Source of the DNA: an uncultured Coriobacteriaceae bacterium
GTDB lineage: Bacteria > Actinomycetota > Coriobacteriia > Coriobacteriales > Atopobiaceae
Reading direction: 5' to 3'
DNA length: 64,000 nt
Assembly (NCBI GenBank): GCA_902788705.1
Contig: CADALE010000013.1
Location: 1-64,000, forward strand
Both the position numbers and the translations under genes were made by a program. Each line of letters opens with the position of its first letter. Positions within the stretch are counted from its first letter, which is position 1. Positions 25,006-29,631 of the stretch are shown here, in pieces. The notes beneath the pieces are model-generated. The model had not been told where the DNA came from, ran no database searches, and saw nothing but the letters and a program-made list of their open reading frames with translations.

Positions 25006-26415
25006 ATGCCGACGACGGGCCCCAAGGAGACGCGGCGCGCCGACTATGCGTCGACGCGCGACCAGGCAGACGGTGCCTGGATTGCCCACGTTGCCGACGG
25101 AAGCCCCGCCTGGGAGGCTGGCCTCGAGGAGGGAATGCGCGTCCTCTCCGTGAACGGGGTGGAGCTGCGTGACATCATCGACTGGCGCTGGGAGGCCGAC
25201 GGAGAGCTTGCCGAGCTTGAGGTGTACGTCCCCCAGGAGGACGAGGTGTACGCCTGCGACCTCGAGCGCGAGGCGGGGCAGGACTGGGGCGTCGAGTTCA
25301 CCGACGTGCTGTTCGATGGCATCCGCACCTGCGTGAATGCCTGCCAGTTCTGCTTCATGGCGATGCTGCCCGACGACGCCCGGGCATCGCTCTCGCTGCG
25401 CGACGACGACTACCGGCTCTCGTTCTTGCAGGGCAACTTCGTCACGCTCACCAACGTTACCGACGAGGACGTGCAGCGCATCATCGACTGCCGCCTCGAG
25501 CCTATGAATGTGTCGCTGCACGCCATATCGCCCGAGGTCAGGCGCTCGCTCATCGGTCGCAACGCCCAGAGGGGCATCGACGTGCTCGAGCGGCTGCTGT
25601 GCGCAGGCATCGAGGTGCATGGCCAGATCGTGCTGTGCGCGGGCATCAACGATGGTGACGAGCTGCGCCGCACGCTTGACTGGGTGGAGTCCTGGCCCAC
25701 CTTCACGTCGCTGGCGCTTGTGCCCATGGGCTACACCAAGTACTCGCGTCGCTTCTCGTCGTCATTCTCCGAGGACCGCGAGGCAAGCCAGGCCGTGGTG
25801 CGCCTGCTTAGGCCCTATCAGGAGCGCGCACGCCGCGAGTTGGGCATCACGCGGTTCCAGCTTTCCGATGAGTTCTACCTCGACGCCAACCTTCCGGTGC
25901 CCGCTGCCGACACCTATGACGGCTATCCGCAGTTCTACGACGGCATCGGCATGCTGCGTAGCTTCCTTGACGACACGACGTCTATCTGCGCCGAGCGCAA
26001 GCACGACCTTTCCAAGGCTGCCCGATGGCTTGACGACCAGGGTCGGACGCTCCTCGTTGTGTGTGGCGAGGCGGCGCAGGGCGTGGTGGACGACCTGTGC
26101 GCCTCGTGGGCGTCGGCCCTTGGCCTTGCGAGGTCCTGCGCCGAGGCCTACCCCATACGCAACGACTACTACGGCGGCGACGTCAACGTGACTGGCCTCA
26201 TCGTGAGCTGCGACCTGCTTGCGCAGCTTCCCAAGGACCTGCACCGGCATGTGGTGATGCTGCCCGAGGTCATGTTCAACTTCGACCACGTCACGCTTGA
26301 CGGCGACACGCAGGAGCACATCGTGGAGGAGCTTGCCTCGCGAGGCGCCGAGGTGCTGGTGTGCGTGACCACCCCCGGGCCTCTGCTGGATGCGTTGCTT
26401 GAGGCCATGAGGTAA
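25006..26415 (+). CDS. DUF512 protein with PDZ-like and CX3CX2C iron-sulfur motif
   Basis: A 469-residue protein. Residues 25-65 form a PDZ-like domain (ADGSPAWEAGLEEGMRVLSV). CVNACQFCF near residue 105 gives a CX3CX2C cluster motif like that of radical SAM enzymes, followed by LQGNFVTLTNVTDEDVQRII, the radical-SAM-like barrel. The C-terminal part (FDHVTLDGDTQEHIVEELAS) is the DUF512 domain. GGAGG lies 9 bases before the start. This gene normally sits beside der and plsY in gram-positives, and both lie just downstream, separated only by the SIR2 gene. The reaction is unknown. Confidence 0.88.
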   Translation: MPTTGPKETRRADYASTRDQADGAWIAHVADGSPAWEAGLEEGMRVLSVNGVELRDIIDWRWEADGELAELEVYVPQEDEVYACDLEREAGQDWGVEFTDVLFDGIRTCVNACQFCFMAMLPDDARASLSLRDDDYRLSFLQGNFVTLTNVTDEDVQRIIDCRLEPMNVSLHAISPEVRRSLIGRNAQRGIDVLERLLCAGIEVHGQIVLCAGINDGDELRRTLDWVESWPTFTSLALVPMGYTKYSRRFSSSFSEDREASQAVVRLLRPYQERARRELGITRFQLSDEFYLDANLPVPAADTYDGYPQFYDGIGMLRSFLDDTTSICAERKHDLSKAARWLDDQGRTLLVVCGEAAQGVVDDLCASWASALGLARSCAEAYPIRNDYYGGDVNVTGLIVSCDLLAQLPKDLHRHVVMLPEVMFNFDHVTLDGDTQEHIVEELASRGAEVLVCVTTPGPLLDALLEAMR

Positions 26416-26440: not shown

Positions 26441-28150
26441 CTAGGAGATCCCGCCCTCCACATGGATTCGCAAGAGTCTGCCCACACGCCTCAGCACCGA
26501 TGCACGCGAGCCCTCGCACGTCTCGATGACGGACTCGCGCACGGTGGCGTCGGCCACGAGCCGCCTGCCCAGAGTGAGGCAGAGGTCCTCCAAGACCTCG
26601 GCCGTGCCGGCGGTGCCATCGATGCGCGCCTCGCCGCTGGCCACGGGCACACGCTGCCACTGGAGCGTCTGGATGGCCTCCATCTCCTCGAGGGAGTCGA
26701 CGCACAGCAGGAAGAGCTGCATCTCAAGGGGCTCGGCATGCCGTGCGATGGCGCGCTGCAGCTCGTGGAGGCCCGACGAGAGGTCGATGTCGAAGCGGGC
26801 AACCGGAAGCTCGGGCGGCATGCCGTCGGCGTTGCGCCACAGCGCGGCATGCATCGAGAACGCCTTGCGTATGTAGGCAAGGGCCACCTCGGGATGTATG
26901 CATTGGCCTATGACCTGCGCAAGCGTGGACGCAGACACCCCGGCTGCGCCCATGGCGCGCGCATCGAGGAAGGGTGCCCAGAATGCGAGGCACGCGTCGC
27001 CTACCTCGCAAGCTGCCAGGTGTTCGAGGACAAGCCGCTGGAAGCGACCGTAGAAGGGCCGGTGCGCCTCCTCGGCAAGCAGGATGAGCTCATGATGGTG
27101 CTCGACGGCGAAGGCGTCGGCAGCCCAGCGCCTCAGAACCTCGTCGCGTGGCTCGTCCCCCTTCTCGAAGAGGAGGCCTCCATAGCCAAGGGCGACGAGG
27201 GTCTCGAGGCTCTCGAATCCATGGGCGGCGCGGGCGAACGACTCCGCGTAGGCACGGCGATGACCTGGGTCCGGGTCCTCGAAGGCCTTGCGGAGCGTCT
27301 CCACGTCATAGTCGGTGAGGGGATCCGTCGCGGCCGAGATGCGCTCCACTGCCTGCGAGCGCTCGGAAGGCGTGCGAAGCACCCGGAGGCGCCATTCCCT
27401 AAAGAGCTCGGGCAGCTGGTCATAGCGCTCGAAACGGATGGGCGTGATGCCTCGTGCGCGCCATCGGGTGAACCAGGCCACGTCGGGCTCCAGCACGAAG
27501 ACGCGGTCCTCAAGCTCGGTGGATATCGACCTCGCGAGGTACTGCAGCGGCATGTCGCGCAGGCTGTAGCCCACGAAGAGCACGGTGTAGCGGGCGAACA
27601 TCTTCACCAGGAAGCGCGCCACCCAACCATCCGACACGTAGGCACTGCCAAAGTCGGAGTCCACGAGGATCATCTCGGAGGGCTGGCGGATGTCGCCATG
27701 CAGGTGCACGATGCCGTTGATGTCGTTTCCCAGCGGCAGGGCGGGGGAGGAGAAGGTGCGCAGGTACATGCCCAAATGGTTGGCGGCCTCCTCGAAGCGC
27801 AGATCGTAGTTGGTGGTGACGATGCGCGCAACCCCTCCCTCGAAGAGCCGAACGATGTTGGCGTGCAGCTCGGAGGCGCGTCCCGCTCCCATGATGTGGG
27901 CGCAGTCGCGCTTGAGCTGCGTCGGGTTGCCGATGCGGCCTAGGTACGACTCGTAGCGCTCGCCCTCAAACCGTGGCGTCACCTGGCCGTCGACGCTGGA
28001 CGTCCGCGCTAGGCTGTCGATGAGCTGCGTGAAGTCGGGCAGGGGGTCGGGCGGCTGCATGGACACGCCGGCGCCGGCAAACACCACAAGGCGGTCCTCC
28101 TCGATGGCGGTGGTCAGCACGTCGGGTATGTCGATTCCGTTTATCTGCAC
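26441..28150 (-). CDS. SIR2-domain NADase-like protein, probable defence protein
   Basis: A 569-residue protein from GTG 28150, which has GAGGTG 6 bases upstream; the TTG start six codons earlier is weaker. Residues 15-210 are a SIR2-like Rossmann fold: RLVVFAGAGVSMQPPDPLPD (NAD loop), RIVTTNYDLRFEEAANHLG, IVHLHGDI and VLFVGYSLRDMPLQYLARSI. The long C-terminal region (about 350 residues) is helical, like DUF4020 extensions. Such SIR2_2 proteins in Thoeris, DSR and Avs systems destroy NAD on phage infection. No partner gene is present. It is antisense to the DUF512-der-plsY line, which it appears to interrupt. Assignment to defence is inference from family. Confidence 0.75.
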   Translation of the reverse strand: MQINGIDIPDVLTTAIEEDRLVVFAGAGVSMQPPDPLPDFTQLIDSLARTSSVDGQVTPRFEGERYESYLGRIGNPTQLKRDCAHIMGAGRASELHANIVRLFEGGVARIVTTNYDLRFEEAANHLGMYLRTFSSPALPLGNDINGIVHLHGDIRQPSEMILVDSDFGSAYVSDGWVARFLVKMFARYTVLFVGYSLRDMPLQYLARSISTELEDRVFVLEPDVAWFTRWRARGITPIRFERYDQLPELFREWRLRVLRTPSERSQAVERISAATDPLTDYDVETLRKAFEDPDPGHRRAYAESFARAAHGFESLETLVALGYGGLLFEKGDEPRDEVLRRWAADAFAVEHHHELILLAEEAHRPFYGRFQRLVLEHLAACEVGDACLAFWAPFLDARAMGAAGVSASTLAQVIGQCIHPEVALAYIRKAFSMHAALWRNADGMPPELPVARFDIDLSSGLHELQRAIARHAEPLEMQLFLLCVDSLEEMEAIQTLQWQRVPVASGEARIDGTAGTAEVLEDLCLTLGRRLVADATVRESVIETCEGSRASVLRRVGRLLRIHVEGGIS

Positions 28151-28263
28151 TGCGACACCTCGTTTCAATCGCTTCCCATGCTACCGCATGCCTAAGCCCT
28201 CACTTGCTAAGACGTGGGCTTTCTGGCGGCGGGTCAAAGGCGGAAGGTTGGGTGGCGGCACCA

Positions 28264-28272
28264 TGCTACAAT
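28264..28272 (+). promoter_or_regulatory. Extended -10 promoter for der-plsY
   Basis: TGCTACAAT lies 33 bases before der. The identical nonamer lies upstream of the response-regulator gene (39216-39224, other strand), supporting TGCTACAAT as a promoter box in this genome. Confidence 0.55.
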
Positions 28273-28305
28273 TTATCAGTTACCTGTCTCAACTGGAGGA
28301 ACATC

Positions 28306-29631
28306 ATGCCCAAGCCCATCGTGGCAGTCGTCGGCCGCCCCAACGTCGGCAAGTCCACCCTCGTGAACCGCCTTGCCGTAAGCCGTGACGCCATCGTCCA
28401 TGAGTCGCGCGGCGTCACGCGCGACCGCAGCTACCATACCACCGACTGGAACGGACGCGAGTTCGTGCTCATCGACACCGGCGGCATCGAGTCGGTCAAG
28501 TCCAAGGACGTCTTCGCGCCGCGCATCCGCGAGCAGGCCCTGGCCGCCTGTGACGAGGCTGACGTCATCATCTTCGTGGTGGACGGAACGGTTGGCGTGA
28601 CCGACGAGGACGAGGAGGTTGCCCGCGTCATCCGCAAGACCGACAAGCCGTGCTTTTTGTGCGTCAACAAGATGGACGACCCTGCTTCGGATACTCCCAT
28701 CTGGGACTTCTGGTCGCTAGGCGTGGGCGAGCCCCTGCCCATCTCGGCTGGCCACGGCCACGGCACGGGCGATCTGCTGGACGCTGTGGTGGCCGCGTTC
28801 CCCGAGGAGGTTGACGAGCCCGAGGACGAGGATGACGACGTGCTTGACGTGGCCATCATCGGTCGGCCCAACGTGGGCAAGTCGTCGCTGGCCAACCGCC
28901 TCGCGCGCAAGAACCGCTCCATCGTGAGCGACGTGGCGGGCACCACGCGCGACGCCATCGACACCATGATCGAGTGGAAGGGCCAGCGCTTCCGCCTGGT
29001 GGACACCGCCGGCATGCGCAAGAAGACGCAGGTGCACGAGGACGTGGAGTACTACAGCCTGGTGCGCGGCCTTGAGGCCATGGACCGCGCGGACGTATGC
29101 CTGCTGGTGGTTGACGCCTCGGTGGGCGTGACCGAGCAGGACCAGAAGCTGCTGGGCATGGCGGTGGACCGCGGCTGCGCCATCGTGCTTTTGCTTAACA
29201 AGTGGGACCTGATCACCACCGAGCAGCAGCGCACTGAGGTTGGCGAGTCGCTTGCCCAGCGAATGGTGTTCGCGCCGTGGGCGCCCTCCATCAACATCTC
29301 GGCGCTTACCGGACGCGCCATCGACAAGGTGCTGGAGGCCACGGTGCGCGCCGCGGCCAACCACGCGCAGCAGATTCCCACGCCCAAGCTCAACGCGCTG
29401 CTCACGCAGCTGCGAGAGTCGGGCCACACCGTCAGCGAGAAGGGGCGCCGCCTCAAGATCCAGTACGGCGCCCAGACGGGCTCGAAGCCGCCGGTGTTCA
29501 CGTTCTGGTGCAACGCCCCCGACCTCGTTGACGACAACTTCGAGCGCTACCTGGAGAACCGCCTGCGTGAGGCCTTCGACCTCACCGGTACGCCCATCCG
29601 CATGAAGTTTCGTAGGAAGTCGGAGGATTAG
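28306..29631 (+). CDS. der: Ribosome assembly GTPase Der
   Basis: A 441-residue protein with tandem G domains followed by a KH-like domain, as in all Der/EngA. G1 motifs GRPNVGKST (domain 1, residues 9-17) and GRPNVGKSS (domain 2), G3 DTGG and DTAG, G4 NKMD and NKWD are all present. The end (RMKFRRKSED) is the usual basic KH-like tail. ATG 28306 has GGAGG upstream; the longer frame is non-coding. plsY follows after 2 bases. Confidence 0.97.
   Translation: MPKPIVAVVGRPNVGKSTLVNRLAVSRDAIVHESRGVTRDRSYHTTDWNGREFVLIDTGGIESVKSKDVFAPRIREQALAACDEADVIIFVVDGTVGVTDEDEEVARVIRKTDKPCFLCVNKMDDPASDTPIWDFWSLGVGEPLPISAGHGHGTGDLLDAVVAAFPEEVDEPEDEDDDVLDVAIIGRPNVGKSSLANRLARKNRSIVSDVAGTTRDAIDTMIEWKGQRFRLVDTAGMRKKTQVHEDVEYYSLVRGLEAMDRADVCLLVVDASVGVTEQDQKLLGMAVDRGCAIVLLLNKWDLITTEQQRTEVGESLAQRMVFAPWAPSINISALTGRAIDKVLEATVRAAANHAQQIPTPKLNALLTQLRESGHTVSEKGRRLKIQYGAQTGSKPPVFTFWCNAPDLVDDNFERYLENRLREAFDLTGTPIRMKFRRKSED

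Follow-up and report, generated by a model that had tools for sequence, protein, structure and literature searches.

The SIR2 gene at positions 26441–28150 (minus strand) of the window, the whole 64,000-nucleotide stretch analysed here, is probably a defence gene, and with fair confidence we consider its predicted product to be a single-gene, short DSR1-like SIR2 NADase of defence type. The gene is accessory rather than housekeeping and moves within its genus, as indicated by its patchy presence, its occurrence at two other places and a der tree in which the grouping that the SIR2 sequences prefer is rejected.

The SIR2 gene, its product and its neighbours

The coding sequence comprises 569 codons and a stop, running from a GTG at 28150 to a stop at 26443–26441. 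Each of the six orthologues has its ATG at the position of this GTG, which follows a ribosome-site-like GAGGTG at 28156–28161 (minus strand). The GAGGTG lies in the 155 bp spacer (28151–28305) that separates the start of the SIR2 gene from that of der, the two genes being divergent; an alternative TTG 18 bp upstream would give a product of 575 residues. The frame is real rather than a chance frame, given its SIR2_2 match, orthologues in six other genomes (60–68% identity) and pN well below pS. SIR2_2 is the sole Pfam family in the protein (1e-21), with hits up to E 10 considered.

The N-terminal SIR2_2 NADase domain, of DSR1 type, covers residues 1–255 (27386–28150, minus strand), with the best Pfam stretch at residues 109–223. 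It is followed by an all-helical domain at residues 256–496 (26663–27385, minus strand), the presumed sensor or assembly part, which is collinear with residues ~256–496 of long actinobacterial DSR1-like proteins and is conserved up to residue ~470 in all seven proteins. The remaining residues, 497–569 (26444–26662, minus strand), form a variable C-terminal tail that is missing from two orthologues ending near residue 470.

The initial annotation described a 569-residue SIR2 protein with intact NAD motifs, and alignment bears this out. The catalytic Asn (N114, codon 27809–27811, minus strand, TTNYD motif) and His (H151, codon 27698–27700, minus strand, HLHGD motif) are invariant in 7/7 members, and we regard them as the NADase pair because PDB 9v0g has Asn and His at the aligned sites whereas Ala occupies the two sites in the mutant chain 9v12, from an entry titled as a KomBC mutant complex. 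The matching residues are N133 and H171 in DSR2, and N112 and H152 in ThsA (PMC11263360).

On the left, a PDZ/radical-SAM/DUF512 gene (25006–26415, plus strand) converges on the SIR2 gene, the two stops lying 25 bp apart; on the right, der, encoding the EngA GTPase (28306–29631, plus strand), is divergent from it. Gene order is M50 peptidase, scpA, scpB, pseudouridine synthase, cmk, acyltransferase, lytB/ispH, DUF512, SIR2, der and plsY, where names going beyond the Pfam families are those we take these genes to carry. The ten neighbours scanned belong to housekeeping families only, in agreement with the description of the gene as solitary; no defence gene was found among them, including any TIR family, HerA or short Argonaute gene. 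The genome amounts to 2.64 Mb in 48 contigs, the window lying on contig 13. Composition is host-like, as originally proposed, with a GC content of 66.6% against 63.4% for the window and a third-position GC of 85% against 87–90% in the flanking genes. The old age that had been suggested as possible from this composition does not follow, because the transfers we detect run between members of the same genus.

Relationship to DSR1 and other SIR2 systems

The closest known relative is DSR1. The NCBIfam Dsr1 model (NF041818) matches residues 4–245 at 5.8e-35, and Dsr1 ranks best of 12 families in PADLOC (2.1e-30); the match to NF041818 reaches 120.4 bits over model positions 6–280 of 1,263, far below the equivalog cut-off of 1,400 bits. 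The window protein and DSR1 share an N-terminal SIR2_2 domain of one type, a DFGxAYxSDGW..RF stretch, the catalytic Asn and His and a single-gene organization. They differ in length, DSR1 having ~1,250 residues, and the distal part is missing here.

This difference bears on the proposal that the gene acts in abortive defence by NAD depletion. Of that reading, the SIR2 NADase type, the accessory insertion and the defence-like behaviour are supported, whereas its appeal to SIR2 proteins of this size gives no reason to expect defence, because the closest known relative is ~1,250 residues long. Members of this SIR2 subfamily are known to act in defence by NAD+ hydrolysis (PMC11263360, PMC10973363). 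Since DSR1 is reported to block phage while the cell survives (PMC10952713, which cites Garb et al. 2022), we do not describe the action of the gene as abortive.

All 13 long relatives compared have 1,172–1,282 residues. Among plasmids, 189 records match, none covering more than 80% of the query, and the six relatives examined encode proteins of 1,182–1,272 residues. In class and phylum searches that covered part of each group, the best matches outside the genus among 396 phylum genomes were long proteins of 1,172 and 1,179 residues (G376 and G362), from the same phylum and from outside the window's class sample. These two, together with the plasmid-borne Rhodococcus ruber protein WP_342661670.1, are collinear with the window protein from residue 1 to ~496, with a similar helix order in G376; at 1,172–1,182 residues, all three carry ~680 extra residues at the C-terminus. 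Other SIR2 proteins of ~530–580 residues, from the class and the family, share just the SIR2 core with the window protein and were treated as belonging to different families.

Other characterized systems resemble the window protein in part. KomC and ThsA, the best PDB sequence matches, have the SIR2 NADase domain in common with it. KomC chains are 264–278 residues long and therefore lack such a helical domain, and KomC acts together with partner genes. DSR2 of Bacillus subtilis likewise has a SIR2 NADase followed by helical repeats and provides the best Foldseek matches, but it has ~1,005 residues, its distal HEAT and C-terminal domains are without counterpart in the window protein, and the phmmer match is confined to residues 105–207 rather than extending over the whole length. 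Sensing in DSR2 falls to the distal two thirds of the chain. The distal HEAT and C-terminal domains of DSR2 bind the phage tail tube protein, in distal helical cavities (PMC11263360). ThsA has a SLOG domain (PMC10973363), which Pfam does not detect in the window protein; neither Thoeris feature, a C-terminal SLOG in ThsA or an adjacent TIR gene, is present in the window protein or its ten neighbours, and the adjacent HerA or short Argonaute gene of SIR2-HerA and SPARSA is absent from the window locus. PADLOC PDC-S25 and LmuA, families without a curated cut-off, match only residues 99–214 or 98–212, within the SIR2 domain. In the accessible portions of the open-licence literature on DSR1, DSR2, ThsA, Avs5, SPARSA and SIR2-HerA we found no short DSR1-like protein, and a structure or sensing mechanism of DSR1 was likewise not found in open-licence literature.

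Helical domain and origin of the short form

Profile–profile comparison aligned residues 1–493 of the seven short proteins with residues 1–496 of the three actinobacterial long forms over 475 columns (E 5.8e-48), an alignment that could in part have been drawn out from the strong match in the SIR2 domain. When the helical part alone was compared with the three long forms (hhalign), the diagonal solution was best, pairing residues 303–491 with ~301–496 (P 0.0014, probability only 18%). Its score of 35.1 exceeded the maximum of 28.7 in 225 clean shuffles (150 column and 75 reversed block shuffles); 75 forward block shuffles, which retained real 60-column blocks and so are not clean controls, reached 34.7. 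HMMER gave a best E of 0.017 for the helical part. Against five annotated Dsr1 proteins, the match of the seven short proteins stops at the SIR2 domain, with no on-diagonal match in the helical part, and six plasmid proteins yielded no match to residues 250–470 (P 0.55).

Helix order was compared between two separate AlphaFold runs; the long form gave a poor model (mean pLDDT 46), of which only helix order was used. Over residues 256–496, the best of 932 ungapped offsets was −2 and the top eight fell within 5 of zero, scoring 0.50 where the best offset elsewhere scored 0.35. When residues 256–431 were taken alone, the in-step offset was not the best. Profile scores and modelled helix order thus support, but do not secure, homology between the helical domain and DSR1. 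On the same profile and helix-order evidence, the short protein is likely, though not proven, to be a truncated long DSR1-like protein that would have descended by loss of ~680 distal residues.

The AlphaFold model of the short protein, built from seven sequences, has a mean pLDDT of 73.7, with lower values in the SIR2 part than in the helical domain, which reaches ~90 (~81–96 in ten-residue blocks over residues 261–430). Foldseek searches with this model retrieved DSR2 entries as the best PDB matches. VIA rows listed KomC, ThsA, DSR2, SPARSA, Avs5 and FAM118B for the SIR2 part and mixed helical repeat proteins for the helical part (Z 7–8.7; among them importin alpha and a mitoribosome protein). 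Because such Foldseek and VIA scores are common for any helical repeat, we describe the domain only as all-helical and HEAT/ARM-like. Searches with this domain returned no Pfam family above cut-off in 7/7 members, no sequence match better than E 1.4 in the PDB, no relative in 396 phylum genomes other than the window's own gene and one weak match among plasmids. A search of BFVD gave no match at E 0.001.

Distribution, movement and selection

Among 140 family genomes, 13 contain a match to the window protein. Seven of these, counting the window's own, extend over all or nearly all of the protein and belong without exception to this one genus, where the gene is carried by 7 of 18 genomes; in this search the six besides the window's own showed 61–69% identity. 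The remaining six family matches align only over a ~100-residue stretch of the SIR2 core. Many genomes are fragmented, which makes absence uncertain in the incomplete ones. The der site is readable in 15 of the 18 genus genomes, with DUF512–der empty in 11 and occupied by the SIR2 gene in four (G000, G128, G124 and G129); it is unreadable in G131, which lacks a full DUF512 or der gene, and in G127 and G138, where it is split over contigs. The comparison of der loci that had been suggested as a check therefore places the gene at 4/15 readable genus sites, and it is not conserved there across the family, the pattern that would have suggested a housekeeping role.

In three genomes the der site is empty and the gene is located elsewhere. 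In G136 and G125 it lies near an aminotransferase and an IMP-cyclohydrolase region, the G136 aminotransferase having been deduced from a shadow frame, and in G130 it lies between an adenosine-deaminase-like gene and a helicase gene. Four copies are accordingly located at der, two beside the aminotransferase and one in the adenosine-deaminase-like/helicase interval. Partial scans revealed no defence genes beside the G125 or G130 copies.

Additional genes were observed around two of these copies. In G136, a RhuM-Fic protein (L065 7095–8321) that matches PDC-S23, a PADLOC candidate defence gene, at 1e-119 is encoded ~0.5 kb away from the SIR2 gene, and a 132-residue methyltransferase-like ORF separates the two. 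Across the aminotransferase from the SIR2 copy, in both genomes (L065 2204–3220 and L066 4832–5899), lies a gene for a protein of 338–355 residues with terminal GLEQGLEQ-type repeats, which has no Pfam family and in PADLOC matches a putative invertase model weakly.

Gene histories differ between SIR2 and der. G136 and G128 are 95.2% identical in der and 60.3% in SIR2, while G136 and G130 show 79.7% and 80.1%, respectively. The der tree (15 rows) rejects a clade of G136, G125 and G130 (p-AU 2e-6), and the SIR2 tree rejects a clade of G136, G125 and G128 (p-AU 1e-39); the G136–G125–G130 grouping is not rejected by the SIR2 tree (p-AU 0.22), yet that clade is unresolved. The four der-site copies form one clade (support 99/100). 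These sequence relationships fit a single insertion at der, with later absence there in the G136/G125 line, and a second SIR2 lineage transferred among G136, G125 and G130, the order of gain and loss being one that we infer.

A viral origin was rejected, as no relative occurs in viral contigs, where 27 pattern matches gave 0 confirmed, or in phage records. A Roseomonas MAG locus matches in the SIR2 core only (29%).

Across the six der-clade genomes, SIR2 identity is 60–84%, against 78–89% for DUF512 and 87–97% for der. Estimates of omega (Nei–Gojobori, six pairs) were 0.05–0.23 for the SIR2 domain, 0.09–0.32 for the helical part at residues 256–470 (one pair saturated) and 0.22–0.93 for the tail (two pairs not computable), all of them rough values because dS is mostly ~1 or more, near saturation. 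The two shortest copies, of 473 and 475 residues, are constrained over their whole length (omega 0.15–0.19), and no convincing remnants of the missing tail were found in them. On these codon comparisons, the SIR2 gene is under purifying selection.

Proposed function and alternative explanations

In the mechanism we propose, the helical domain would hold the NADase silent until a product of phage infection, binding either to this domain or to the SIR2 assembly, switched the enzyme on; NAD+ would then be hydrolysed and phage growth would stop. Because the distal domains by which DSR2 binds the tail tube have no counterpart here, the short form must sense through the proximal helical part or otherwise. 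We put forward tentatively that it is a minimised DSR1 in which the distal region, presumed to do the sensing, was lost, and in which the NADase and a helical domain of ~220–310 residues may sense another phage or cell signal directly or may work with a separately encoded partner; within the same reading, it is conceivable, to a like degree, that the two relatives of ~475 residues represent a further step down.

If functional, a DSR1-type protein of 475–569 residues would lend itself far more readily to structural studies and to work on the trigger, and the natural size series (~1,180, 536–569 and 473–475 residues) would tell which parts activation needs. The prediction, if true, adds a single-gene defence protein missed by whole-length models, and the minimised form would imply that DSR-type defence can shed its known kind of sensor and yet be retained and passed on.

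Several other explanations account for part of these data. The short protein might be only the effector of a two-part system acting in trans, with its sensor encoded elsewhere and the gene merely looking solitary; the absence of the region matching the phage-binding part of DSR2 (DSR2 layout in PMC11263360) and the presence of only ~220 residues after the SIR2 domain in two orthologues would suit such an arrangement, which we nevertheless hold to be unlikely, as no partner gene recurs among the genes neighbouring the seven copies. We assign a similarly low probability to a non-defence NAD-consuming enzyme, toxin-like or involved in stress or growth control, that shares SIR2_2 by chance. Patchy presence at three locations, transfer between lineages, nearest relatives that are defence proteins and a SIR2 sequence that changes faster than its neighbours DUF512 and der all argue against such an enzyme, despite the lack of defence genes at the window locus and the membership of vertebrate FAM118 proteins in the SIR2_2 subfamily (PMC12700824).

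That the gene is a decaying, non-functional remnant of a long DSR1-like gene seems highly improbable. The deficit of ~680 residues relative to the long form, the relaxed tail and two orthologues that are shorter still could be taken as decay, but open frames and unchanged catalytic residues are kept in 7/7 copies, and omega remains at 0.05–0.32 over residues 1–470 and equally low between the two shortest copies. Least probable is a classical sirtuin-type NAD-dependent protein deacetylase: Pfam matches SIR2_2 and no classical SIR2 family, and, although the fold is that of SIR2 and depositors labelled some PDB homologues as deacetylases, some chains so labelled are also named KomC, an NADase. 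A short DSR1-like defence NADase remains our preferred explanation.

The DUF512–der interval as an insertion site

The initial annotation placed the SIR2 gene antisense between usually adjacent genes, interrupting a DUF512–der–plsY neighbourhood. The insertion splits only the DUF512/der junction, der–plsY being unbroken, and adjacency of DUF512 and der is indeed usual: in addition to the 11 of 15 genus sites, the gap is less than 600 bp in 50 of 63 same-strand, one-contig pairs from the family's other genera. The remaining 13 pairs are separated by 0.9–4.6 kb, and in four further pairs from other genera DUF512 and der lie on opposite strands. Cargo found there includes an EAL protein, a GH3 protein with ChW repeats and secreted proteins that we label S-layer-like. 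The interval (L128–L144 across the family) is thus a permissive, recurrent insertion spot with varied single-gene cargo, and not a defence island.

We rejected insertion by a recognisable element: the window's one tRNA lies 13 kb from the SIR2 gene, and the repeats surrounding that gene are short and of a kind expected by chance. Target-site duplications are unreadable because the intergenic DNA on either side has diverged too far between genomes. A '1 TAG' flag on the der genes of genus g9 is an end-of-alignment effect caused by the natural stop.

Two genomes of another genus, G096 and G097, carry similar tandem gene pairs between DUF512 and der (L140 271–4737 and L139 256–4722), encoding proteins of 745 and 739 residues, the second of which has WD40-like repeats after a TIR_2 domain; this looks like a second conflict system at the same spot. 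A recurrent protein of ~377 residues, with no known family assigned, is encoded beside an inverted DUF512 gene in G090, G092 and G106.
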